Shown here: positions 2,209-22,604 of the stretch, in pieces
Layout of the letters: the number at the start of each line of letters is the position of its first letter
How positions within the stretch are numbered: position 1 is the stretch's first letter
Assembly (NCBI GenBank): GCA_900314905.1
Contig: OMXA01000007.1
Location: 1 to 64,000, forward strand
Length of the DNA: 64,000 nt
Source: an uncultured Erysipelotrichaceae bacterium
Lineage (GTDB): Bacteria > Bacillota_I > Bacilli_A > Erysipelotrichales > Erysipelotrichaceae
Direction: 5' to 3'
Translations under genes and position numbers: made by a program
Notes under the pieces: generated by a model
Database searches by the model: none
What the model saw: the letters and a program-made list of their open reading frames with translations, nothing else
Told to the model about the DNA's origin: nothing

Positions 2209-3189
2209 ATGGAGCGCGATGGCAGCTATTATGTTCCGTATGAGGAACGGACAGGCAATGAATCGATTGTGTATTTTACCCGTGATCTTTCTGCTGCGGG
2301 AATGATGAAGGTTTATGACAAGGTTAAGGAAGGAGTCTTCGGAAAGATCGGAGTCAAGCTTCATACCGGTGAGAAACATGGACCGAATATCATTCCGCAT
2401 GGATGGGTAAAAGAGTTCATGGAGAAAGAATGCCCGGATGCAAGCATCGTGGAAACGAATACCTATTATGAAGGAGATCGTTACACGACAGAACTTCACC
2501 GCGAGACACTGAAGGTAAATGGCTGGACGTTCTGCCCGGTGGACATCATGGATGAAGATGGCACTGTGGATCTTCCGGTAAAGGGCGGCAGGTGGTTTGA
2601 TCATATGACGCATGGCAGCCATATGGTGAACTATGATTCCTTGATTATCCTGACCCATTTCAAAGGTCATACGCAGGGTGGCTTCGGCGGCTCGAACAAG
2701 AATATCGGCATCGGCTGCGCAGATGGAAGAATCGGCAAAGCGATGATTCATAAGAAGAATGGCGATCAGTGGGGCGTCAGTCAGGAAGAACTGATGGAGA
2801 AGATCACGGAGTCCACGAAGGCAACCATTGATTATTTCGGAAAGCATATCACGTATGTGAATGTGATGAGAAATATGTCTGTTTCCTGCGATTGCGAGGG
2901 AGTTCAGGCTGCCCCGGTTGTCACTCCGAATGTCGGCATTCTTGCCTCTGTGGATATTCTGGCTGCAGACCAGGCTTCTGTTGATCTCATTCATGCCATG
3001 AAGGGAAGCGACCGTCATGATCTCTGGGAGCGGATGTCTTCCCGCCATGGGTTCCGCCAGCTTTCCTATATGAAAGAGCTTGGGATGGGAAATGATCGGT
3101 ATGTTCTGATCGATCTGGATCATGACGAAGAGCGCATCACACCGGAATATGCAGTGAAGGATGTTGTTCCGTTCAAGCTGATCGGCTGA
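2209..3189 (+). CDS. DUF362 domain-containing protein
   Basis: This 326-aa protein has the DUF362 signatures: GVKLHTGE near residue 47, the THFKGHTQGGFGG segment near 148 and a CDC motif near 226. DUF362 proteins usually come with a C-terminal or adjacent 4Fe-4S ferredoxin domain and have been implicated in redox or radical enzyme systems, but their reaction is unknown. This copy ends without the ferredoxin cysteines, so it is the short form. A Shine-Dalgarno AGAAGGAGA sits about ten bases before the ATG. A strong terminator follows, closing the cluster that began at position 284. Confidence 0.8.
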   Translation: MERDGSYYVPYEERTGNESIVYFTRDLSAAGMMKVYDKVKEGVFGKIGVKLHTGEKHGPNIIPHGWVKEFMEKECPDASIVETNTYYEGDRYTTELHRETLKVNGWTFCPVDIMDEDGTVDLPVKGGRWFDHMTHGSHMVNYDSLIILTHFKGHTQGGFGGSNKNIGIGCADGRIGKAMIHKKNGDQWGVSQEELMEKITESTKATIDYFGKHITYVNVMRNMSVSCDCEGVQAAPVVTPNVGILASVDILAADQASVDLIHAMKGSDRHDLWERMSSRHGFRQLSYMKELGMGNDRYVLIDLDHDEERITPEYAVKDVVPFKLIG

Positions 3190-3214
3190 GCTTTCAAGCG
3201 ATTGTGAAGCGAGG

Positions 3215-3243
3215 AAAGCGGGTCCCTGCGGATCTGCTTTTTT
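3215..3243 (+). terminator. Intrinsic terminator after the DUF362 gene
   Basis: An 11-bp stem (starting AAAGCGGG, ending TCTGCTTT, with G-U pairs) and a CTGC loop are followed by six T residues. It separates the 284-3189 cluster from rpoD. Confidence 0.85.
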
Positions 3244-3256
3244 CACGAAAAAAGTC

Positions 3257-3285
3257 TTTGCAATAAGAAAAAAAACATTTAATAT
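3257..3285 (+). promoter_or_regulatory. Promoter of rpoD
   Basis: TTTGCA (3257-3262) and TAATAT (3280-3285) are separated by exactly 17 bases, a good housekeeping sigma promoter. It lies downstream of the preceding terminator and about 30 bases before the rpoD start. Confidence 0.7.
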
Positions 3286-3317
3286 GTCAGATGCAATATA
3301 GGAGAGTGTTCTGAGGG

Positions 3318-4538
3318 ATGGCTTCAAGCAAGACGAAAAAGACAAAACCGGAAGTAAATCCGATTATCAATATTTACAGAGATCCGAAAAAGAAAGAGCT
3401 CAAGGATCTGGATGAACTGAAAGAAGAGCTTCGCTCGGTTTACCAGAAGGATGGGGAACTCAGACAGAAGGATATCACCGACGCAATTGCGGCGATGAAA
3501 CTGAGCGATGAAGATACTGACCTGCTCTGGAACTGGCTCAATGAAGAAAATCTGATCGGCAGTTCTGAGGAAGACCTGGAAGAAGCAGAAGAAGTCATGG
3601 AAGAAGATGCTGCTTCTTATGACGGGGATGAAGAAAGTGACGAAGACAAAGAGGATGAAGAGGAAACGGAACTGGTTCCGGACTTCAATGGCCTCGAGAA
3701 TGTGCGCTCCAGCGATCCGGTCCGCAGCTATCTGAAGCAGATCGGTCAGATTCCGCTGCTGACGGCAGAACAGGAACTGGATGTTGCCCATCGCATGAAG
3801 CAGGGTGATGAAGAAGCAAAGCAGCTGCTGGTTTCCTCTAATCTGCGTCTGGTTGTTTCCATTGCCAAGAAATATGTCGGCCGCGGCATGCAGTTTCTGG
3901 ATCTGATTCAGGAGGGCAACATCGGTCTGATGAAGGCGGCTGATAAGTTTGACCCGGATAAGGGATTCAAGTTCAGCACGTATGCGACCTGGTGGATCCG
4001 TCAGGCAATCTCACGTGCGATTGCTGATCAGGCAAGAACGATCCGTCTTCCGGTTCATCTGGTTGAAGCAAATGGCAAGGTCGTGCGCATGCAGCGTCAG
4101 CTGGTGCAGGAACTCGGCAGAGATCCGACCCCGGAAGAGATTGCGGCAAGGCTGAAGGATATCACTCCGGAAAAAGTGAAGGAGCTTCAGCTGGTTACTA
4201 TGGATCCGGTTTCGATGGAAACGCCGGTCGGCGACGAGAGCGATGCCCACCTGGGAGATTTCATTGAAGACAAGACCGGGCAGAGGCCGGAAGACTTTGC
4301 CGAAGGACAGCTTCTGAAAGAAGAAATCAACCGGGTTCTAAGTGAACTCACGGAACGGGAAGAGCAGGTCATCCGCCTGCGTTTCGGATTGGATGGATCC
4401 CGCCCGATGACGCTGGAAGAAGTCGGCAGAGAGTTCGGCGTGACGCGTGAACGGGTCCGCCAGATTGAGGCAAAAGCCCTCCGGAAGCTTTCTCATCCGG
4501 TTCGTTCCAGAAGACTCAAGGATTTCATGACAGACTGA
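3318..4538 (+). CDS. rpoD: RNA polymerase primary sigma factor (RpoD/SigA)
   Basis: This 406-aa protein is the housekeeping sigma factor that directs RNA polymerase to -35/-10 promoters. After an acidic, low-complexity region 1.1-like segment (about residues 85-120) come region 1.2 ([11 protein letters not shown]), region 2 with the melting and -10 recognition helix ([13 protein letters not shown] near residue 225), region 3, and region 4 with the -35 helix-turn-helix ([21 protein letters not shown] near 370). Length and domain order fit group 1 sigma factors of Bacillota. It has its own promoter and terminator and no dnaG beside it. Confidence 0.97.
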
Positions 4539-4560
4539 CAGCGGAAAAACCGCTGTTTTC
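4538..4560 (+). terminator. Intrinsic terminator of rpoD
   Basis: A 7-bp perfect stem ACAGCGG/CCGCTGT with a five-A loop begins at the last base of the rpoD stop codon and is followed by TTTTC. Confidence 0.8.
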
Positions 4561-4619
4561 TGTTTTCACATAATTTCACACGTTTCTGACAATGATCTGC
4601 GGGGATTTCTGGCTATATT

Positions 4620-4730
4620 ATCAATGCAAGTAAAAGGAAGAGCTTGCGCGGAGATATGTTGCTGGAGTCCCCCTTTCACCAGCAATATGTCTGGAAACAG
4701 AAAGCCCGGAACTGTGAGCCGGACTTTTTT
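4620..4730 (+). ncRNA. Unidentified structured RNA with its own terminator
   Basis: Four consecutive foldable elements fill this gap. Stem GCAAG/CTTGC spans 4626-4647. A 12-bp stem lies at 4654-4690 (ATATGTTGCTGG / CCAGCAATATGT, with G-U pairs). A CTG-GAAA-CAG hairpin with a GNRA loop lies at 4691-4700. A T-tailed terminator hairpin occupies 4702-4730. A -10-like TATATT is at 4614-4619. It could be a small RNA or an attenuator for the following gene. It does not match the SRP RNA, 6S or riboswitch consensus sequences that I know. A long open frame through this segment (from 4624) is unlikely to be coding. Confidence 0.45.
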
Positions 4731-4764
4731 CATGAAGCCTGATGTAATTTGCAGTGAAGCACTT

Positions 4765-4770
4765 TATAAT
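4765..4770 (+). promoter_or_regulatory. -10 element immediately before the 4783 gene
   Basis: A perfect TATAAT ends 12 bases before the ATG at 4783, with no good -35 and no Shine-Dalgarno sequence. The predicted transcript would start around 4777, leaving a leader of about six bases. Confidence 0.45.
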
Positions 4771-4782
4771 AATTCAAGTCAT

Positions 4783-5289
4783 ATGAAGAAAGAAGAACTG
4801 ATTCCGTATCTGCAGAGCTTTGTGACCCTTGTCACGGAAGATGGTTCCCGCCATTCCGGGTATATTTCAAACCCTGAGGAAGTGAAGAATGCATCCGATG
4901 ACTCCTTTTCCGTTGCCTTGCTCAATGGCTTCTTCTCTCAGAATATCCAGGCTTCCGAAATTGCTGCGGTGGAGATTCCTTCCCGGCAGGAAACGGTATC
5001 GATTCCGGTTGTGGATCTGAAGAAGGGATATGAAACCGAATCGCTTCTGAAACCGGAAGATTTCCGGAATTATCATGGACCGATTGACCAGGAGCTTTCT
5101 GATCTGTACCTGGAATACATTGAACGTTTTCATAAACACCCGGACGAGCGGGCAGATCTGGACTTTGACCTGATGAACCTGGATGAATTCAAGGAGTGCA
5201 TCCGCAAGTGCCTGAAACAGAATGAGCCGGTCAATGTCGTGATGAATTCGTTCATGCAGGCGTTCTATCACGCATTCCACAAGGAATAA
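4783..5289 (+). CDS. Hypothetical protein, 168 aa
   Basis: I cannot assign a family. The product is acidic and soluble, beginning MKKEELIPYL. It has a beta-rich N-terminal half (a small barrel-like stretch VTLVTEDGSRHSGYIS near residue 13) and a helical, cysteine-containing C-terminal half. I start it at 4783 rather than at an upstream in-frame ATG because the upstream 53 codons cover a structured RNA and terminator, and a TATAAT lies just before this ATG. No ribosome binding site is visible, so translation may be leaderless. The gene stands alone between rpoD and a minus-strand tRNA. Confidence 0.65.
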   Translation: MKKEELIPYLQSFVTLVTEDGSRHSGYISNPEEVKNASDDSFSVALLNGFFSQNIQASEIAAVEIPSRQETVSIPVVDLKKGYETESLLKPEDFRNYHGPIDQELSDLYLEYIERFHKHPDERADLDFDLMNLDEFKECIRKCLKQNEPVNVVMNSFMQAFYHAFHKE

Positions 5290-5446
5290 GATGAAGCGAA
5301 TCTGCCTCGAAGACAGTTTTCTTCTCAATGCATGTTCTGCTATGCACTGCTGGCTGTGCTTCTGCTTTCTGGTCAGGCGCGATCCTGATCTGCCCTTTGC
5401 CTGATGGTGGTCTGATTCCACATCTGGATATTCAGAATTGCATACG

Positions 5447-11594: not shown

Positions 11595-11614
11595 AAAAGG
11601 GCGTGAGCCCTTTT
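11595..11614. terminator. Bidirectional terminator between yqeY and hydE
   Basis: An 8-bp perfect stem AAAAGGGC/GCCCTTTT with a GTGA loop serves the two convergent genes and slightly overlaps the hydE stop. Confidence 0.85.
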
Positions 11615-12689
11615 ATTTCGCTGGAGCAGTGCCCTTCTTCCAGAGTCTCGGGGCATCTCCTCTGCCGATTTCAACTTCATAGCCAAGACCATGGATTCTG
11701 CCGGACATGCAGCCGGCACACATCAGTGCATCATCGCTCAGACAGATCTTATTATCGTAAAGCAGATACTTCTTCCGATTCTCGACCGGAGAAAGATTCG
11801 GCATCACGACATTGGCACCCGCAAGAATGCCTTTCTCGCGGCCGCGCGGATCGGCGGTGCCGAGAGCAGTAGTAGCTGGCAGCAGGGCTTTGGGAAACAT
11901 GAGTCTCAGAACACCGAGCATGAATAGCGTGAGTTCGGTGCTCCCTTCAGGTTCATCGCGGAAGGGAGTCTCCTTGTGAGGAAGGAAGGGACCGATTCCG
12001 ATCATGTCCGGTTCCAGTTCCTTCAGAAAGAAGAGATCGTTCACAAGATCATCTGTCGTCTGGCCTGGCGCATCGATCATCATGCCTGCTCCGACCTGAT
12101 ATCCGATGTCTTTCAGATCCCAGAGGCAGCGGACACGGTTCAGCAGGGTCTGAGGTTCCGGGTGCAGCTTCCGGTAGAGTGAAGGAGAAGCAGTCTCGTG
12201 TCTCAGAAGATAGCGGTCAGCCCCAGCTTCGTAGTATTTCTCGAAGGAGGTCCTGCTTTTTTCGCCGATTGATAACGTGACCGCACTGTCCGGGAAGCGC
12301 TTCTTCAGCTCCCGGATGATGTCACAGAGAATCTCATCGGTATACCAGAGATCTTCCCCGCTCTGCAGAACAAACGTCCGGAACCCGACCTCATGGCCAA
12401 GAGCGGCACAGGAAATGATTTCTTCAGGACTCATGCGGTAGCGCTCAGCATGTTCATCTGAGCGGCGGATGCCGCAATAGCGGCAGTCGCACCGGCAGTA
12501 ATTGCTGAATTCAATGATGCCGCGCAGATAGACTTTATTGCCGAATACTTCCTTTGCTCTATTGCGGGCAAGTGAAAAAAGGTGCTCTGCACTTTCCGGA
12601 GTTCTGCCTTCGATCAGTTCATGGAACTCTTCCCGGGTGAGCATGCCTTCTTCGCTGAGTTTCTCAATCAATATTGCCTGATGATCCAT
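11613..12689 (-). CDS. hydE: Radical SAM enzyme, [FeFe]-hydrogenase maturase HydE type
   Basis: A 358-aa radical SAM protein. The AdoMet 4Fe-4S motif CRCDCRYC (C-X3-C-X2-C) is near residue 65 in the context IIEFSNYC, as in HydE, which helps build the dithiolate bridge of the [FeFe]-hydrogenase H-cluster. The barrel segments ETASPSLYRKLHP and GIGPFLPHKETPF are also HydE-like. The C-terminal CAGCMSG pair may bind the accessory cluster. Start at 12689 follows AAGGAAATCC at good spacing. HydF, HydG and a hydrogenase are not in this window, so it could be elsewhere-partnered, or a PylB/BioB-type relative. Confidence 0.82.
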   Translation of the reverse strand: MDHQAILIEKLSEEGMLTREEFHELIEGRTPESAEHLFSLARNRAKEVFGNKVYLRGIIEFSNYCRCDCRYCGIRRSDEHAERYRMSPEEIISCAALGHEVGFRTFVLQSGEDLWYTDEILCDIIRELKKRFPDSAVTLSIGEKSRTSFEKYYEAGADRYLLRHETASPSLYRKLHPEPQTLLNRVRCLWDLKDIGYQVGAGMMIDAPGQTTDDLVNDLFFLKELEPDMIGIGPFLPHKETPFRDEPEGSTELTLFMLGVLRLMFPKALLPATTALGTADPRGREKGILAGANVVMPNLSPVENRKKYLLYDNKICLSDDALMCAGCMSGRIHGLGYEVEIGRGDAPRLWKKGTAPAK

Positions 12690-12821
12690 TGGATTTCCTT
12701 GCTTTCTATGATGATGTTCTTTTTGCTCTGGTTCGCTGTTCATTATCCTATGTTCCTCATCAGAAAACAAGAAACGTGAATCCCGGACGATTGCCTTCCC
12801 ATACATGGCGGCAGGAAGAAC

Positions 12822-12830
12822 TGCTATAAT
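12822..12830 (+). promoter_or_regulatory. Extended -10 promoter of the DAHP synthase gene
   Basis: TGC-TATAAT lies 25 bases before the start codon, upstream of the AGGAG ribosome site. It has no clear -35 element. Confidence 0.6.
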
Positions 12831-12855
12831 GATGCGCGTATCAGGAGATCGTATT

Positions 12856-13893
12856 ATGGAAAAACACATGCAGTATATTCAGGAATTGCCGACGCCGGAA
12901 GAACTGAAGAAGCAGTTCCCGCTCAGCGATGCAATTCATGAGATCAAGAAAGAACGAGATCGGCAGATTGAAGAGATCTTCACCGGAAAAGATCACCGCC
13001 TGCTGCTGATCATCGGACCATGTTCGGCAGATCGTGAAGACGCAGTGCTGGACTATATGACGAGACTTGCTGCGGTGCAGGAGAAAGTAAAAGATAAGAT
13101 CTTCATGATTCCCCGTGTTTATACGAACAAGCCGCGCACGAAGGGAATCGGCTATAAAGGCATGCTGCATCAGCCGGATCCGCATAAGAAAGAAGATATG
13201 CTGGCAGGCATTATTGCCATCCGTGAGCTTCATACCCGGGTGGTAAAGGAAACCGGGTTCACGACTGCAGAGGAGATGCTGTATCCTGAAAATCATCGGT
13301 ATCTTTCTGACTTGCTAAGCTATGTTGCAGTAGGGGCTCGTTCCGTGGAAGATCAGCAGCATCGCATGACTGCTTCCGGCATCGGCATTCCTGCCGGAAT
13401 GAAGAATCCGACTGGCGGAGATATCTCGGTCATGATGAATGCCATCACCGCGGCACAGTCTCCCCAGGGCTTTGTCTACCGCGGCTGGGCAGTGCGCACG
13501 ACTGGCAACCTGATGGCGCATGCCATTCTGCGGGGATACGTGGACCGCTTCGGCCGGAATCTTCCGAATTATCATTACGAAGATATCATGAATCTGCTCG
13601 AGGAATATCAGAAGCGGGATCTTCAGAACCCGGCTCTGATCGTAGACTGCAATCATTCCAATTCCAACAAGAATTATCTGGAGCAGATCCGGATTGCAAA
13701 AGATGTTCTGCACAGCTGCAAAGTCTCAGAGGACATCCATAAGATCGTCAAAGGCCTGATGATTGAAAGCTATCTGGAAGACGGATGTCAGAAACCGGAA
13801 GACAGTGAATACGGGAAATCCATCACCGATCCCTGCCTTGGCTGGGAGAAGAGCGAGAAACTGATTTACGAACTTGCAGAACTGATTGATTAA
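12856..13893 (+). CDS. aroF: 3-deoxy-7-phosphoheptulonate (DAHP) synthase, class I
   Basis: A 345-aa enzyme condensing phosphoenolpyruvate and erythrose 4-phosphate, the first step of the shikimate pathway. Signature stretches of the AroFGH type are IIGPCSADR near residue 53, RVYTNKPRTKGIGYKG near 92, GARSVEDQQHR near 160, KNPTGGD near 185, and DCNHSNSNKN near 262. Length matches the E. coli enzymes (about 350 aa), including an N-terminal extension that in that type carries feedback sites. AGGAG lies eight bases before the ATG at 12856. It stands alone with its own promoter and terminator; a chorismate mutase is at 56.5 kb. Confidence 0.95.
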   Translation: MEKHMQYIQELPTPEELKKQFPLSDAIHEIKKERDRQIEEIFTGKDHRLLLIIGPCSADREDAVLDYMTRLAAVQEKVKDKIFMIPRVYTNKPRTKGIGYKGMLHQPDPHKKEDMLAGIIAIRELHTRVVKETGFTTAEEMLYPENHRYLSDLLSYVAVGARSVEDQQHRMTASGIGIPAGMKNPTGGDISVMMNAITAAQSPQGFVYRGWAVRTTGNLMAHAILRGYVDRFGRNLPNYHYEDIMNLLEEYQKRDLQNPALIVDCNHSNSNKNYLEQIRIAKDVLHSCKVSEDIHKIVKGLMIESYLEDGCQKPEDSEYGKSITDPCLGWEKSEKLIYELAELID

Positions 13894-15194: not shown

Positions 15195-17459
15195 TTACAG
15201 AAGCTGGTGGGCGTTTCTTGCAATGACGTCGAGCTGCTGTTCCTTCGTCAGATCAATGAACTTGACGGCATAGCCAGATACCCGGATCGTGAAGTTGGCA
15301 TATTCCGGCTTCTCCGGATGTTCCATTGCATCCTTGAGCTTCTCAATGCCGAAGACATTGACATTCAGATGGTGAGCGCCCTGATCGAAGTAGCCATCCA
15401 GAACATTCACGAGGTTGGCGGTGCGCTGATCCTCATCATTTCCTAATGCGGAAGGGCTGATGGTCTGCGTATTGGAGATGCCATCCAGAGCATATTCATA
15501 CGGAAGCTTTGCAACACTGTTGAGGGAAGCAAGCAGACCGTTCTTCTCTGCACCATATGCAGGATTGGCACCAGGTGAGAATGGCTCGTAAGCTGCCCTG
15601 CCATCCGGCAGAGCTCCGGTTGCCTTGCCGTATACGACATTGCTGGTGATCGTGAGAATGGAAGTGGTGGCTTCGCTGTTGCGATAAGTGTGATGCTTTC
15701 TGATCTTCGTGATGAACGTCTTCAGCAGCCATACAGCAATTTCATCGGCACGCTCATCGTCATTGCCATAGCGTGGGAAATCACCTTCCACCTTATAATC
15801 TACTGCCAGTCCGGTTTCGTCGCGGATGACCTTGACTTTGGCGTAGCGGATGGCAGACAGGGAATCGACGACATGGGAGAAGCCGGCGATGCCGGTAGCG
15901 AACGTGCGGCGCACATCGGTATCGATGAGAGCCATCTCCGCTGCCTCATAGTAGTACTTGTCATGCATGTACTGAATCAGATTCAGAATATTGACATAGA
16001 GTCCTGCCAGCCAGTCCATCATCTGATCATACTTGTGCATCACTTCGTCATAGTTGAGATAGTCTGAGGTGATCGGCGCATATTCAGGTCCTACCTGCAT
16101 ATGATTTCCGTTCTTGTCGAGGAATTTCTCGTCCTTGCCGCCATTGATGGCATAGAGCAGGCACTTGGCAAGGTTTGCCCGGGCACCGAAGAACTGCATT
16201 TCCTTGCCGGTCTCAGTGGCACTGACGCAGCAGCAGATGCTGTAGTCGTCACCCCAGATCGGACGCATGACATCATCATTCTCATACTGGATCGAAGATG
16301 TGCGGATTGAGATCCGGGCAGCGTATTTCCGGAACGCTGCCGGAAGCCGTGAGCTGTAGAGCACGGTGAGATTCGGCTCTGGTGCGGGACCCATGTTTTC
16401 AAGGGTGTGCAGGAAGCGGAAGTCATTCTTCGTGACCATGGAACGACCGTCCATGCCAAGTCCGGCAACTTCCAGGGTTGCCCATACCGGGTCTCCGGAG
16501 AATAATGCGTTGTAGCTTGGAATGCGGGCGAACTTGACCATGCGGAACTTCAGGACAAGATGGTCGATCAGTTCCTGTGCTTCTTCTTCGGTGAGGGTGC
16601 CTTCCTCCAGATCTCTCTGGATATAAATGTCCAGGAAGGTGGAGATTCTTCCGACTGACATCGCAGCCCCATTCTGGGTCTTGATTGCGGCAAGATAGCC
16701 GAAATACAGCCACTGCACTGCTTCTTTTGCAGTTTCTGCCGGCTTTGAGATGTCATAGCCGTAGATCTCAGCCATCTTCTTCATGCCGTTCAGAGCACGG
16801 ATCTGATCGGCAAGCTCTTCGCGCTGGCGGATGATGTCATCGGTCATTGTTCCGTCACCGCAGTTTGCAAAGTCATTCTGCTTTTCGCGGATCAGATAAT
16901 CGATGCCATACAGGGCAATGCGGCGGTAGTCGCCGACAATTCTGCCTCTTCCGTAGGTGTCCGGAAGACCGGTGATGATATGGCTGTGACGGGCTGCTTT
17001 CATCTCCGGGGTATAGGCATCGAACACTCCCTGATTATGGGTCTTATGGTATTCTGTGAAGATCTTATGGAATTTGTCATTGACATGATATCCATATGTC
17101 TCAGCAGCTTCTTCTGCCATCTTGATGCCGCCGTATGGCATGAATGCACGCTTCAGCGGCTTATCGGTCTGCAGACCGACAACCTGTTCCAGGTCTTTCA
17201 TGGATTCGTCGATATAGCCTGGCCCATAGGCGGTCAGACCGGATACTACTTCGGTCTCGCAATCGAGAACGCCGCCTTTTGCGCGTTCTTCTTTCTGCAG
17301 TTCCTGGACCTTTGCCCACAGCTGATCGGTCCGTTCCGTCGGTCCTTTCAGAAATGATTCATCGCCGTCATACGGTTTGTAGTTGTTCTGAATGAAGTCA
17401 CGGACGTTGACGTCATTCTTCCAGTGTGTTCCTCTGAATGATCTCCATGCATTGCTCAT
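15195..17459 (-). CDS. pflB: Formate C-acetyltransferase (pyruvate formate-lyase)
   Basis: A 754-aa glycyl radical enzyme splitting pyruvate with CoA into acetyl-CoA and formate in anaerobic fermentation. The C-terminal radical site is RVSGYAV (Gly729) and the catalytic cysteines lie in the [10 protein letters not shown] stretch in the middle of the protein. There are three consecutive Cys where the E. coli enzyme has two. The length matches E. coli PflB (760 aa). The order here is pflA first and then pflB, on one transcript, with the pflB ATG overlapping the pflA stop by four bases. Expression is probably induced without oxygen through the FNR site upstream of pflA. Confidence 0.97.
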
Positions 17460-18235
17460 AAGGTATGCCTTCTTTCTTGATAAACCAGATCAGGAGTGCT
17501 GAATGCCTGTTGGCCATTCAGGATTCTCCTGGCGTTTTCGATGCGTTCTGCGGATGGCGGGTTTACGCCGGCCAGCGAGTAAGGAATTCCAAGGGCTTCA
17601 TACTTGTGGATGCCCAGGGTGTGATAGGGCAGCACATCAATCCGCTCTATGTTATGAAGAGAGGACAGGAATGCCCTTGTCTGATGCAGCCAGGTATCAT
17701 CATCTGTGATCCCGGGAACCAGCACATGCCTGATCCAGACTGGCTGATGGATCTCATCGAGATACTTCAGCATATCCAGAATGTTCTCATTGGACTTTCC
17801 GGTTAAAAGACGATGCTGGTGCGGATCGATGTGCTTGATATCCACCAGCAGGAGATCGGTATATTCCATCAGTTCCTCAAACTTGCTGAAGAATGGTTCC
17901 GTTCTGGAAAATGGCTGTCCGGCAGTATCGATGCAGGTCGAGATATTCCGCTGCTTTGCCTTGCGGAAAAGATCAATCAGAAAATCAATCTGCAGCAGCG
18001 GTTCCCCGCCGCTGACCGTGATGCCGCCATCTTTTCCCCAGTAGGGACGGTAGCGTTCCGCCTGATTGAGCAGTTCGTCTGCGGTACGAAGATCCTTGCT
18101 TTCAGGATTCCAGGTATCCGGATTGTGACAGTACCGGCACCGGAGATTGCAGCCTTTCAGAAAAATCAGAAAGCGGACGCCTGGTCCGTCTGCAGAACCG
18201 AAGCTTTCAACGGAGTGTATTCTTCCCTGAATCAT
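17456..18235 (-). CDS. pflA: Pyruvate formate-lyase activating enzyme (radical SAM)
   Basis: The 259-aa activase uses S-adenosylmethionine and a 4Fe-4S cluster to place the glycyl radical on PflB. The cluster motif CNLRCRYC (C-X3-C-X2-C) is near residue 30 and the GGEPLLQ glycine-rich SAM motif near 78. The N-terminus [17 protein letters not shown] is characteristic of PFL-AE. GGAGAG lies at good distance before the ATG. It is the first gene of the pflA-pflB transcript, the reverse of the common pflB-pflA order. Confidence 0.95.
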
Positions 18236-18270: not shown

Positions 18271-18282
18271 CTCACAAGAGAG

Positions 18283-18324
18283 AGAATACCTTCAGCGGGC
18301 TGGATGTTCCTTGATCAGGATCAA
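18283..18324 (-). promoter_or_regulatory. FNR-box promoter of pflA-pflB (class II)
   Basis: A perfect palindromic FNR box TTGATcaggATCAA occupies 18311-18324. On the minus strand, TATTCT (18288-18283) is placed so that the predicted start is about 18276, putting the box centre at -41.5, the classic position for FNR-activated promoters. There is no -35 hexamer, as expected when the activator replaces it. Confidence 0.8.
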
Positions 18325-18341
18325 ATTGTGTGGGATTTTAC

Positions 18342-19058
18342 TCAATCTGCGGAAGCACTCTGAAACAGAAGCTGAAGCGTCGGCCGGTCGATGACCTGGA
18401 TCTTTCCCTGGCCGATCCTTCGGATCAGTCCTTTTTTCTCCAGCTTTGTGAGGTTTCTGGATACGGTTTCCGGCCGCAGGCTGATGGAAGCGGCAATATC
18501 ATCAAGGCGCATGCTGATAAAGGGGCCGATGCAGCGCGTGTCGCGGTCCAGCAGAAAGCCTGCCAGCCGGACCTCAGGATCCCGGATCGATAGCAGGAGC
18601 GTCTTTTCCTTTGCTTCAGAAAGTTCCGTGCTCAGCATCTGAATCAGGCTCATTGCAGTCTCGGGCTGCTGTTTCAGAAGGTCTAGAAATTCCTCTCTGC
18701 GGATCTCGCAGATCGAAACATCGGTCACGCATACAACCGAATAGTGATAGACCGGATCTTTGAGAAACATGTCATGCCAGATTGCCTGGCCGTCATGAAG
18801 GATATCAAGCACATGCTCTTCCCCGTTCGGGTCCAGGCGGCAGGTTTTCAGCCGTCCTTTCCGGATAATGATGATGGAATCGATGCGCTGTCCTTCATGA
18901 ATCAGTATCTGGTCTTTCGGGTGCCTGCTCATGATTGCATGCGCAACGAGTTTCTCCTGAGCCTGTTCCGGAAGATCGCGGAATAAGCGGATCTTTGAGG
19001 TACATAGTGTTTTCTCCTGGCAATAGCGGCAGGAAGTTTCATCACAGGCGGCGGTCAT
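18342..19058 (-). CDS. fnr: FNR-type oxygen-sensing Crp-family transcription regulator
   Basis: A 238-aa Crp/Fnr protein. An N-terminal cysteine cluster Cys10-X2-Cys13-X5-Cys19 has the same spacing as Cys20/23/29 of E. coli FNR. Cys117 in SICEIRREEF matches Cys122 there, so an oxygen-labile 4Fe-4S cluster is likely. A cyclic-nucleotide-type beta barrel precedes the helix-turn-helix, whose recognition helix RPETVSRNL keeps the E-X2-S-R that reads TTGAT. I start at 19058, after the deoD terminator. No ribosome site is seen, but TGC-TACCAT places the transcript start at the ATG, suggesting leaderless translation. Confidence 0.88.
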   Translation of the reverse strand: MTAACDETSCRYCQEKTLCTSKIRLFRDLPEQAQEKLVAHAIMSRHPKDQILIHEGQRIDSIIIIRKGRLKTCRLDPNGEEHVLDILHDGQAIWHDMFLKDPVYHYSVVCVTDVSICEIRREEFLDLLKQQPETAMSLIQMLSTELSEAKEKTLLLSIRDPEVRLAGFLLDRDTRCIGPFISMRLDDIAASISLRPETVSRNLTKLEKKGLIRRIGQGKIQVIDRPTLQLLFQSASAD

Positions 19059-19118
19059 AGGTCCATGGTAGCAGAGATTCCGGGAATCCTCCAGATGGGT
19101 TCCCTCAGATTGATTGGC

Positions 19119-19149: not shown

Positions 19150-19881
19150 TTATTCAGCGAATTCCCAGGCAGTATCCAGGGCAATCTCCATCATATCCGT
19201 GAAGGAATCGCGGATCTGCTCAGAGGTAAGTGCCTGCTGCTTGAACAGATGATCGCTGATCGAGAGAATCGTCAGCGCACGCTTGCGGTTGACTGCGGCT
19301 TCCCAATAAAGGCCTGCAGATTCCATTTCAATGGCCAGATGTCCGTAGTCTCTGAGCTTTTCATTGATTTCTCCTGCTTTCGGATTGTAGAAGAAGTCAG
19401 AGCTGAAGATCTTTCCGACCTTGAAATTGCAGCCCTTTGCCCGGGCTTTATTGACAGCAGTTTCCAGGAGATCGAAGTCTGCGCATGGAGCGAACTGACC
19501 GATGCCGTACTGATTCCCGTAATTGGAATTGGTTGTGCACGCTTCGGCGATGACGATATCGGAAGTGTTGACATCCATCGCCAGCGCTCCGGCAGAACCG
19601 ATGCGGATAATGGATTCTACCCCGAACTGCGTGAACAGCTCATGCGTATAGAGACCGACTGAAGGAATTCCCATGCCGTGGCCCATGACGGAAATCTTCT
19701 TTCCTTTATAGATTCCGGTATAGCCGAGCATATTGCGGACATCATTGAAGCAGACCACATCGCTGAGATAGGTGTCTGCCACCTTCTTGGCACGGAGCGG
19801 ATCTCCAGGCATCAGGACAACCTTGGCAATCTCTGCCTTCTGTCCGATGCAGGCACTGATACTTTCCTTGTAAACTGTCAT
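19150..19881 (-). CDS. deoD: Purine-nucleoside phosphorylase, DeoD type
   Basis: A 243-aa hexameric-type phosphorylase that cleaves purine (deoxy)nucleosides with phosphate to base and (deoxy)ribose 1-phosphate. Hallmarks are VVLMPGDPLRAKKVA near residue 21, GHGMGIPS near 68, RIGSAGAL near 92, and EMESAGLYWEAA near 187. GAGGAGAATGAA supplies the ribosome site. It is the second gene after mtnA with a 19-base gap, sharing mtnA's promoter. This pairing suggests sugar 1-phosphates made here, perhaps from methylthioadenosine or 5'-deoxyadenosine, pass to MtnA; that link is inference. Confidence 0.95.
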   Translation of the reverse strand: MTVYKESISACIGQKAEIAKVVLMPGDPLRAKKVADTYLSDVVCFNDVRNMLGYTGIYKGKKISVMGHGMGIPSVGLYTHELFTQFGVESIIRIGSAGALAMDVNTSDIVIAEACTTNSNYGNQYGIGQFAPCADFDLLETAVNKARAKGCNFKVGKIFSSDFFYNPKAGEINEKLRDYGHLAIEMESAGLYWEAAVNRKRALTILSISDHLFKQQALTSEQIRDSFTDMMEIALDTAWEFAE

Positions 19882-21557: not shown

Positions 21558-22604
21558 ATGAAGTACACAGCAATGATGAAATCTGCACTTACAGCACTGA
21601 TGGCAGGAAGCCTTGCTGCATGCAGCAGCGGATCCGCCGCTGCCGCTGCAGGCACTGCGTCTGCGACTGCCGCCGCTTCTGCAGAATCGAAAACGTATAA
21701 GGTTGCGGTCGTCAAACAGCTTGATCATGCATCGCTCGATGAGATTGCCGATGCCATTACTGCTGAGCTGGACAAGCTTGCTGAAGAAAACGGTGTGACG
21801 ATTCAATATGGCGATGTGTATTCCGGTCAGAATGATCAGACCACGCTGCAGCAGATCGGCTCTCAGGTCATCGCTGATGGCGCTGACTGCATCATTCCGA
21901 TTGCGACGCTGGCTGCTCAGACGATGACGGCAGCAGCAGAAGAAACCAGGACTCCGGTCATCTTTGCGGCAATCTCTGATCCGGACAGCGCAGAACTCAC
22001 CGGAATTGATTATGTTTCAGGGACTTCCGATGCGCTGAACACGACTCAGATCATGGATATGATCTTTGCCCAGAACCCGGATGCGAAGAAGATCGGTCTC
22101 CTCTATTCGAAATCGGAAACCAACTCCGTCAAGCCGATCGAGGATGCAAAGGCATATCTGGATCAGAAGGGAATTGAATATGTCGAAGCAACCGGAAATA
22201 CGAATGATGAAGTCATCCAGGCAGCTTCTTCGCTTGTCGCAGATGGCGTGGATGCGGTCTTCACTCCGACGGATAATGTCGTCATGGCAGCAGAACTTGC
22301 CATCGCTCCGACGCTTGCAGAAGCTGGAATCCCGCATTATGCAGGGGCTGATTCCTTTGTCCGCAATGGTGCATTCGCAACCTGCGGCGTGAACTATACT
22401 GATCTTGGAACAGAAACAGCTGATCTTGCCTTCAAGGCGATGACGGAAGGAATGGAATCTCTTGGCGATTATTATGAATCCTATGAAGTGATGCCAGGCG
22501 GAATCATCACGGTCAACACGGAGACCGCAGCTGCTCTGAACGCAGATTATTCCATGTTCAATGATTTCGGAAAAATCGTCGAGGTAACTACAACAGAAGA
22601 CTGA
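21558..22604 (+). CDS. trpX: Tryptophan ABC transporter substrate-binding lipoprotein (TrpX family)
   Basis: A 348-aa secreted lipoprotein with a signal peptide and the lipobox LAAC (Cys22), then an Ala/Ser-rich linker. The periplasmic-binding-fold domain has the ABC_sub_bind (DUF534-like) signatures, such as TVKQ-like VAVVKQLDHASLDEI near residue 48 and DAVFTPTDNVVMAA near 235. Family members bind tryptophan or related aromatic amino acids outside the membrane. The Trp T-box upstream is strong support for tryptophan. AGGAAAG precedes the ATG. Confidence 0.9.
   Translation: MKYTAMMKSALTALMAGSLAACSSGSAAAAAGTASATAAASAESKTYKVAVVKQLDHASLDEIADAITAELDKLAEENGVTIQYGDVYSGQNDQTTLQQIGSQVIADGADCIIPIATLAAQTMTAAAEETRTPVIFAAISDPDSAELTGIDYVSGTSDALNTTQIMDMIFAQNPDAKKIGLLYSKSETNSVKPIEDAKAYLDQKGIEYVEATGNTNDEVIQAASSLVADGVDAVFTPTDNVVMAAELAIAPTLAEAGIPHYAGADSFVRNGAFATCGVNYTDLGTETADLAFKAMTEGMESLGDYYESYEVMPGGIITVNTETAAALNADYSMFNDFGKIVEVTTTED

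Follow-up and report, generated by a model that had tools for sequence, protein, structure and literature searches.

Does the FNR-type regulator encoded next to the pyruvate formate-lyase (PFL) genes of this genome control them, and is oxygen the signal to which it responds? A sequence-only reading of this DNA had proposed a complete oxygen-sensing FNR circuit on PFL in a Bacillota-type genome. The description of the genome is correct, as the source belongs to the Erysipelotrichaceae in the phylum Bacillota. We analysed a stretch of 64 kb (64,000 nucleotides), here called the window, from an assembly of 2,136,555 bases in 76 contigs. On its minus strand, deoD is followed by the regulator gene, pflA, and pflB (Table 1).

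Table 1 Features of the regulator-PFL locus in the window
Feature	Position	Strand	Remark
deoD	19150..19881	-	
FNR-type regulator gene, 238 aa, CRP/FNR superfamily	18342..19058	-	cNMP_binding + HTH_Crp_2
Codons of the N-terminal cysteine motif C10-X2-C13-X5-C19	19002..19031	-	C10 and C19 invariant in 16/16 orthologues (alignment A1)
Codon of the central cysteine C117 (aligns with E. coli C122)	18708..18710	-	kept in 13/16 genus orthologues
Codons of the recognition helix E197-x-x-S200-R201	18456..18470	-	invariant in 16/16 orthologues
FNR box TTGAT-N4-ATCAA 5' of pflA	18311..18324	.	exact match
GGA immediately 3' of the box	18308..18310	-	RGA in 12/12 promoters
-10-like hexamer TATTCT, 22 nt after the box	18283..18288	-	predicted transcription start at 18276
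Terminator-like hairpin 3' of the regulator gene, pflA -10 in loop	18253..18301	-	folding
pflA, pyruvate formate-lyase-activating enzyme	17456..18235	-	TIGR02493 300.5 bits, cut-off 231.75
pflB, pyruvate formate-lyase	15195..17459	-	TIGR01255 1159.2 bits, cut-off 994.2

Two other features of the window were recorded. Close to the PFL locus, positions 11613-12869 (minus strand) encode HydE, an [FeFe] hydrogenase maturase (519 bits). The first 22 codons of this ORF overlap a DAHP synthase ORF on the opposite strand and the profile match begins at residue 67; hence, the true start is probably later. On the plus strand, a T-box leader (RF00230, 21208-21466) with 87 bits, slightly below the gathering score of 93, lies 5' of a gene at 21558 whose product is TrpX-like, the substrate-binding protein of an ABC transporter (161 bits, cut-off 390).

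The residues of the regulator are numbered from the ATG at 19058, which was the choice of the earlier reader. This start codon is only putative because, in the region 19055-19092 of the window (minus strand), the closest GGAGG is 29 nt upstream of it and a tiny frame, ATG-GAC-CTA-TGA, overlaps it. The longest ORF begins with TTG at 19184. Family membership is read directly from the protein: matches to PF00027 (66.3 bits, cut-off 27.5) and PF13545 (48.7 bits, cut-off 27) place it in the CRP/FNR superfamily. The predicted structure agrees, with a cNMP-binding-type beta-barrel and a Crp-type winged helix; residues 1-18 of the model have pLDDT values below 50. The NCBI Fnr model NF008365 requires 228 bits, and the protein scores 59.8, which places it far outside the NCBI Fnr subfamily. 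No second protein of its kind was found in the window's genome at E ≤ 0.001. The E-x-x-S-R recognition helix that had been read from the sequence is present.

Cysteines are found at positions 5, 10, 13, 19, 73, 110, 117, and 176. In E. coli FNR (sequence from NC_000913), the cysteines are at 16, 20, 23, 29, and 122, of which C20, C23, C29, and C122 are the cluster ligands. The regulator therefore has the N-terminal cluster-type arrangement, C-X2-C-X5-C plus a central cysteine, formed by C10, C13, C19, and C117. As it has the N-terminal cysteines 5, 10, 13, and 19 in addition to 117, it is not of the two-cysteine FLP type. No Bacillus-type C-terminal C-X2-C-X4-C was found; the last cysteine of the 238-residue protein is C176. 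All four cluster cysteines had been claimed to match the spacing in E. coli. For the three N-terminal ones, the spacing is indeed identical. The step to the fourth is different, with 98 residues from C19 to C117 versus 93 in E. coli FNR. The alignment with E. coli FNR that had been suggested as a check thus confirms the N-terminal layout but not a close match overall, with 54 of 234 aligned residues identical.

On the minus strand, the box reads TTGATCCTGATCAA from 18324 to 18311. It is the perfect box before pflA that had been reported and the only exact TTGAT-N4-ATCAA in the window. The genome scan proposed along with it gave two exact matches in the 2.14-Mb assembly and none for the backward control pattern. 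The second one (C56:1742) was rejected as a target as it is located within an ORF which by eye is FtsK-type and mobile-element-like. Assuming a transcription start 7 nt 3' of the TATTCT hexamer, the box is centred at -41.5, in line with the earlier assignment. Counts of the box as such say little. If one mismatch is tolerated, 4 sites occur in the window compared with 5.2 expected; the looser TTGA-N6-TCAA occurs 14 times in the genome and is no commoner than its control (18); and genomes of the genus carry 1-15 exact boxes with the regulator versus 0-28 without it. Exact boxes are present in 63 of the 71 genus genomes with or without the regulator, and genome-wide box counts were dropped as evidence. 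When the box was extended by the RGA and a TAnnnT -10 element and up to two mismatches were allowed, the genome had one match, the pflA promoter, without any mismatch. The backward control of this pattern, with two mismatches allowed, also gave one match. Hence, only the exactness and the place of the pflA match count, and the box gains its significance from its position, as the relatives show. In G000, two TTGACA-N2-TGTCAA palindromes 41 bp apart (G000:C52:9983 and 10024) were seen, which are perhaps sites of another regulator.

We searched for the regulator in all 71 genomes of the genus and found 16 orthologues at E ≤ 1e-30. The PflA search covered 61 of these genomes, of which 18 gave a match at E ≤ 1e-60, and one more, in G088, was found adjoining the regulator gene. 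Regulator and PFL are both present in 12 genomes (G000, G035, G005, G036, G075, G071, G080, G081, G088, G077, G025, and G034), of which G036 and G088 are near copies. Four genomes have the regulator with no PflA found (G027, G030, G061, and G078, which are 80, 69, 95, and 94% complete). In seven others, PflA is present with no orthologue; one of these, G073, encodes a distantly related FNR-like protein with two cysteines (26% identity).

In all 12 genomes with both, a box precedes pflA (8) or pflB (4). It is exact in 11 and has one mismatch in G077, in which pflB is located approximately 2.9 kb behind pflA. In a given 313-nt stretch, an exact box arose by chance in 0 to 9 of 4000 mononucleotide shuffles at each of the 12 loci. 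A TAnnnT element follows the box at an offset of 22 in nine promoters and of 21 in two. None of the other offsets (50 tested) has more than four, and three of the four at the best of them come from one subclade. In the twelfth promoter, that of G034, the hexamer at 22 is CAGAAT, preceded by a TG. In the subclade of G005, G036, G088, and G077, the regulator gene overlaps pflA and the box is found before pflB instead; thus, the site goes with the promoter. Box and spacing are also kept while the remaining intergenic sequence has diverged. Both observations give the circuit added force. The claim that the regulator acts on pflAB from a class II position by way of this box is thereby supported as a prediction from conserved box, 21-22-nt spacing, and co-occurrence.

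The six assessable non-carriers have the gene order pflB-pflA versus pflA-pflB in carriers. An exact box was absent from the 300 nt 5' of pflB/pflA in all six assessable non-carrier loci, where the best sites have 2-4 mismatches; G009, with 6 nt of upstream sequence, was outside this test. Two one-mismatch look-alikes in non-carriers were discarded, one in G070 that overlaps the annotated pflB start and one in G063 downstream of pflA, and neither is part of the upstream test. In the trees of PflA (100/97) and PflB (86/86), the carriers are on one side of a single branch. Hence, the contrast between carriers and non-carriers amounts to one evolutionary event, and the trees do not show independent gains of box and regulator; the weight of the comparison is in the conservation within the carrier clade.

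The promoter region also has the potential to form a hairpin. In the four genomes in which the regulator gene is located directly before the box and pflA (G000, G035, G075, and G071), a hairpin with a T-rich run spans the -10 element. The leader folding energies against mononucleotide shuffles correspond to z values of -3.3, -3.8, -2.2, and -2.4, respectively, and those of seven other promoters range from -1.6 to 0.3 (G088 was not folded). The stem sequences differ among the four genomes. The 5' arm precedes the predicted pflA start, and in G035 it contains the -10 element. A transcript from the pfl promoter would thus be without the 5' arm. We infer that the hairpin is the terminator of the regulator gene and insulates pflAB. 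Our separate terminator scan, which admits loops of 3-8 only, did not report this structure. A second possible hairpin (-13.5 kcal/mol) is found in the predicted pflA transcript.

The output side of the circuit is constant among the carriers, and the sensor side varies. C-X2-C is present in 5 of the 16 genus orthologues, namely the window protein and those of G005, G036, G088, and G077, the latter four with C-X2-C-X4-C. It is missing from seven of the eight rows of the window protein's own clade. Three members of this clade (G025, G075, and G081) have an additional upstream cysteine at C-X3-C, so that "three-cysteine" is used here as a class label and not as a strict count. The two nearest rows in the tree, G035 and G071, have C-X8-C plus the central cysteine and retain box and PFL; hence, the circuit seems not to require all four cysteines. 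Among the 12 regulators linked to PFL, four (G035, G034, G071, and G080) have just two N-terminal cysteines. A second alignment of the orthologues shows a gap at C10 in G078. The position of C117 is occupied by alanine in G027, G030, and G061, genomes with no PFL found, and their fetched regulator loci (L037, L034, and L076) contain no exact box. In G264, from another genus of the family, a protein with 51% identity lacks N-terminal cysteines in its ORF as read, and phenylalanine occupies the central cysteine position. In these comparisons, the sensory cysteine set is unstable and varies between close relatives, which counts against the [4Fe-4S] reading.

To place the protein in its wider family, we used a profile of the 16 orthologues. 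It matched 81 of 316 genomes of the order at E ≤ 1e-20 and 28 of 392 genomes across the phylum at E ≤ 1e-27, all in the window's class. The 76 Bacilli rows compared consist of the 16 orthologues, 36 proteins from L152-L187 (35 from other genera and one from G073 of the window's genus), three of family f2, and 21 from the 24 loci L188-L211, without L196 and L198 (repeat rows) and L207 (no blastp match). These rows are the better-scoring matches and not a random sample; among them, 27 have C-X2-C plus a central cysteine, 22 have at least two N-terminal cysteines without C-X2-C plus a central cysteine, 22 have one N-terminal plus a central cysteine, and five have other forms. The expectation that an enterobacterial-like layout would be unusual here is therefore not borne out. 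A tree of 77 rows adds E. coli FNR as the 28th four-cysteine row. On this quick tree, in which the deep branches are weak and the E. coli branch is very long, the cysteine class changes at least 19 times compared with a shuffled mean of 38.8. In 49 of 56 rows, one of the 56 being E. coli FNR, the distance from an N-terminal cysteine to the central position is 97-99 residues. Given the 27 C-X2-C forms, the low identity, and the low Fnr model score, the regulator belongs to a lineage of its own and is not an import of E. coli FNR.

The same promoter geometry occurs outside the genus. In 63 loci near FNR-like genes, both strands of which were scanned, we found 21 distinct exact boxes, and 17 of them have TAnnnT at an offset of 22 (18 counts), with at most five counts at any of the other offsets (45 tested). 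The 63 loci include the repeats L196 and L198, the near-copies G043 and G048, and L170, which is from the window's genus and has no box. This count replaced a hand-picked list of 16 boxes outside the genus. The four boxes without TAnnnT at 22 are L040:6382, which has it at 23, and L155:7902, L187:8069, and L203:1163, which are inside ORFs. The regulators in loci with such sites include two-cysteine (G042, G043, G124, G186, and G407), three-cysteine class (G314, G198, G207, and G515a), and four-cysteine proteins (G295, G309, G310, and G312).

Genes adjoining the FNR-like genes in the 63 loci include those of P-type ATPases and, in G314, of an Fe-S repair-type protein. In L038, L040, L169, and L187, two-cysteine FNR-like genes are near a small ORF and a P-type ATPase-like ORF, and exact boxes have the same spacing; in L187, both ORFs were tested against Pfam and the small one had no match. 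In L153 (G314, 2717-5295), an FNR-like gene is followed by an exact box with TAnnnT at 22, a ScdA_N-hemerythrin protein, and a DUF438-hemerythrin-PAS protein. This looks like the same switch placed on a seeming Fe-S repair function.

The box in all 12 promoters, the fixed TAnnnT spacing, the sole match of the extended pattern, and the invariant E-x-x-S-R make the regulator read as a dedicated activator of pflAB. As far as seen, it would serve the single adjacent operon pflA-pflB, and targets of other geometry are possible. Quite probably, it is a class II activator of the FNR type dedicated to pflAB, with oxygen sensing through a [4Fe-4S] cluster as a likely part of this. A dimer would bind TTGATCCTGATCAA centred at -41.5 and recruit RNA polymerase. 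Without oxygen, the regulator would be active, most likely by means of an N-terminal [4Fe-4S] cluster on C10, C13, C19, and C117, and oxygen would break the cluster so that the activity is lost. PFL, a glycyl-radical enzyme, needs the absence of oxygen. The oxygen-fragile enzyme would hence be made only when it is able to work, and the hairpin across the pflA promoter would stop transcription of the regulator gene from entering pflAB. For the four-cysteine protein of the window, a cluster answering to oxygen is likely and our best guess, based on the family and the nature of PFL. Against this overall reading stand the unstable cysteine set, the low Fnr model score, the carriers' single branch, the FNR-like protein of non-carrier G073, the control match of the extended pattern, and the second hairpin.

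Other readings differ in the sensor or in the role of the box. A thiol/disulphide switch, as which the FLP of Lactobacillus casei reportedly functions, would make C19 and C117 essential and C10 and C13 accessory, with no cluster. Such a switch would agree with the pair approximately 98 residues apart, which is the most widely kept part of the sensor, and with the 22 of 77 rows that have one N-terminal plus a central cysteine, some of them beside exact boxes with the same spacing. However, the complete C-X2-C-X5-C plus C117 of the window protein and the genus-invariant C10 exceed the needs of a disulphide pair, and the central cysteine is lost in three genus orthologues, so we regard this switch as rather unlikely. 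Still less credit is given to a cluster or switch that senses nitric oxide or Fe-S damage and not oxygen as such. The locus of G314, a related genus, would suit it, as a box with identical spacing separates the FNR-like gene there from the gene of the ScdA_N-hemerythrin protein, but the target in the window's genus is PFL and the sole extended-pattern match in the genome is at pflA.

That the box serves repression or is a chance palindrome is very improbable. It is true that exact boxes are widespread in the genus, and most of the genomes that have one are without an orthologue. However, an exact box at a given locus is rare in shuffled sequence, and the fixed spacing to the -10 element, inside and outside the genus, fits class II activation. 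A broader statement on the FNR-type activators can be put forward with about even odds: in this Bacilli lineage, the output side (E-x-x-S-R helix, TTGAT-N4-ATCAA, and approximately 22 nt to the -10) may be frozen while the sensor side is fluid, with four, three, two, or no cysteines, and may have changed repeatedly even between close relatives acting on the same pfl promoter. If so, the window protein is a four-cysteine member of an otherwise three-cysteine-class clade, and the series is a natural experiment in which a [4Fe-4S] oxygen sensor turns into another redox sensor.

Among known systems, FNR of E. coli and Aliivibrio fischeri resembles the regulator in the CRP/FNR fold, C-X2-C-X5-C plus a central cysteine, E-x-x-S-R, and TTGAT-N4-ATCAA at -41.5; pfl is reportedly a target of E. 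coli FNR. Besides the low identity, the longer C19-C117 step, and the score below the NCBI Fnr cut-off, the regulator differs by having one clear target in the window's genome compared with the global regulon of E. coli, and its C-X2-C is not kept by the nearest relatives. A Bacillota lineage thus combines, in several genera, an N-terminal cysteine layout with the box and promoter geometry of E. coli. Among the matches listed in our literature search, in which subscription papers were mostly outside, neither an FNR circuit controlling PFL in Erysipelotrichaceae nor a four-cysteine N-terminal FNR in Bacillota was the subject of any paper.

Fnr of Bacillus subtilis and B. cereus is likewise a CRP/FNR-family protein of Bacillota in anaerobic control. 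Its cluster cysteines are in a C-terminal extension, the fourth ligand is an aspartate, and the ligands occupy positions 219-235 (PMC3520743). The difference from Bacillus Fnr that had been pointed out holds against these positions, as the regulator has no such C-terminal cluster and its last cysteine is 176. A 2026 structural review still separates Gram-negative FNRs, in which the cluster is N-terminal, from Gram-positive ones, in which it is C-terminal (PMC12937710). Against Bacillus Fnr and this division, the enterobacterial layout is surprising, but it is common and unstable in its own Bacilli family.

FLP, FlpA, and FlpS of Lactobacillales are also FNR-like and have cysteines in the N-terminal part; the window protein has extra N-terminal cysteines at the E. 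coli spacing. Two-cysteine relatives of the regulator adjoin pflBA in L199 and L201 (family f3), where the fetched loci contain no exact box, and recall proteins of the FLP/FlpS type. The two-cysteine regulators of Erysipelotrichales by P-type ATPase operons (G042, G043, G124, and G186) share box, spacing, and E-x-x-S-R with the window protein, but have other targets and one N-terminal cysteine only. PFL is among the genes affected by FlpS of S. suis, and a C129S change in FlpS had no visible effect (PMC5039431). According to the same paper, two cysteines are frequent in FNR-like proteins of Gram-positive bacteria, and whether a cluster plays a role is disputed (PMC5039431). The present series bears on this dispute: box and promoter are constant, and the number of sensory cysteines ranges from four down to two or none, which makes close relatives directly comparable for the ligands that an oxygen sensor needs.
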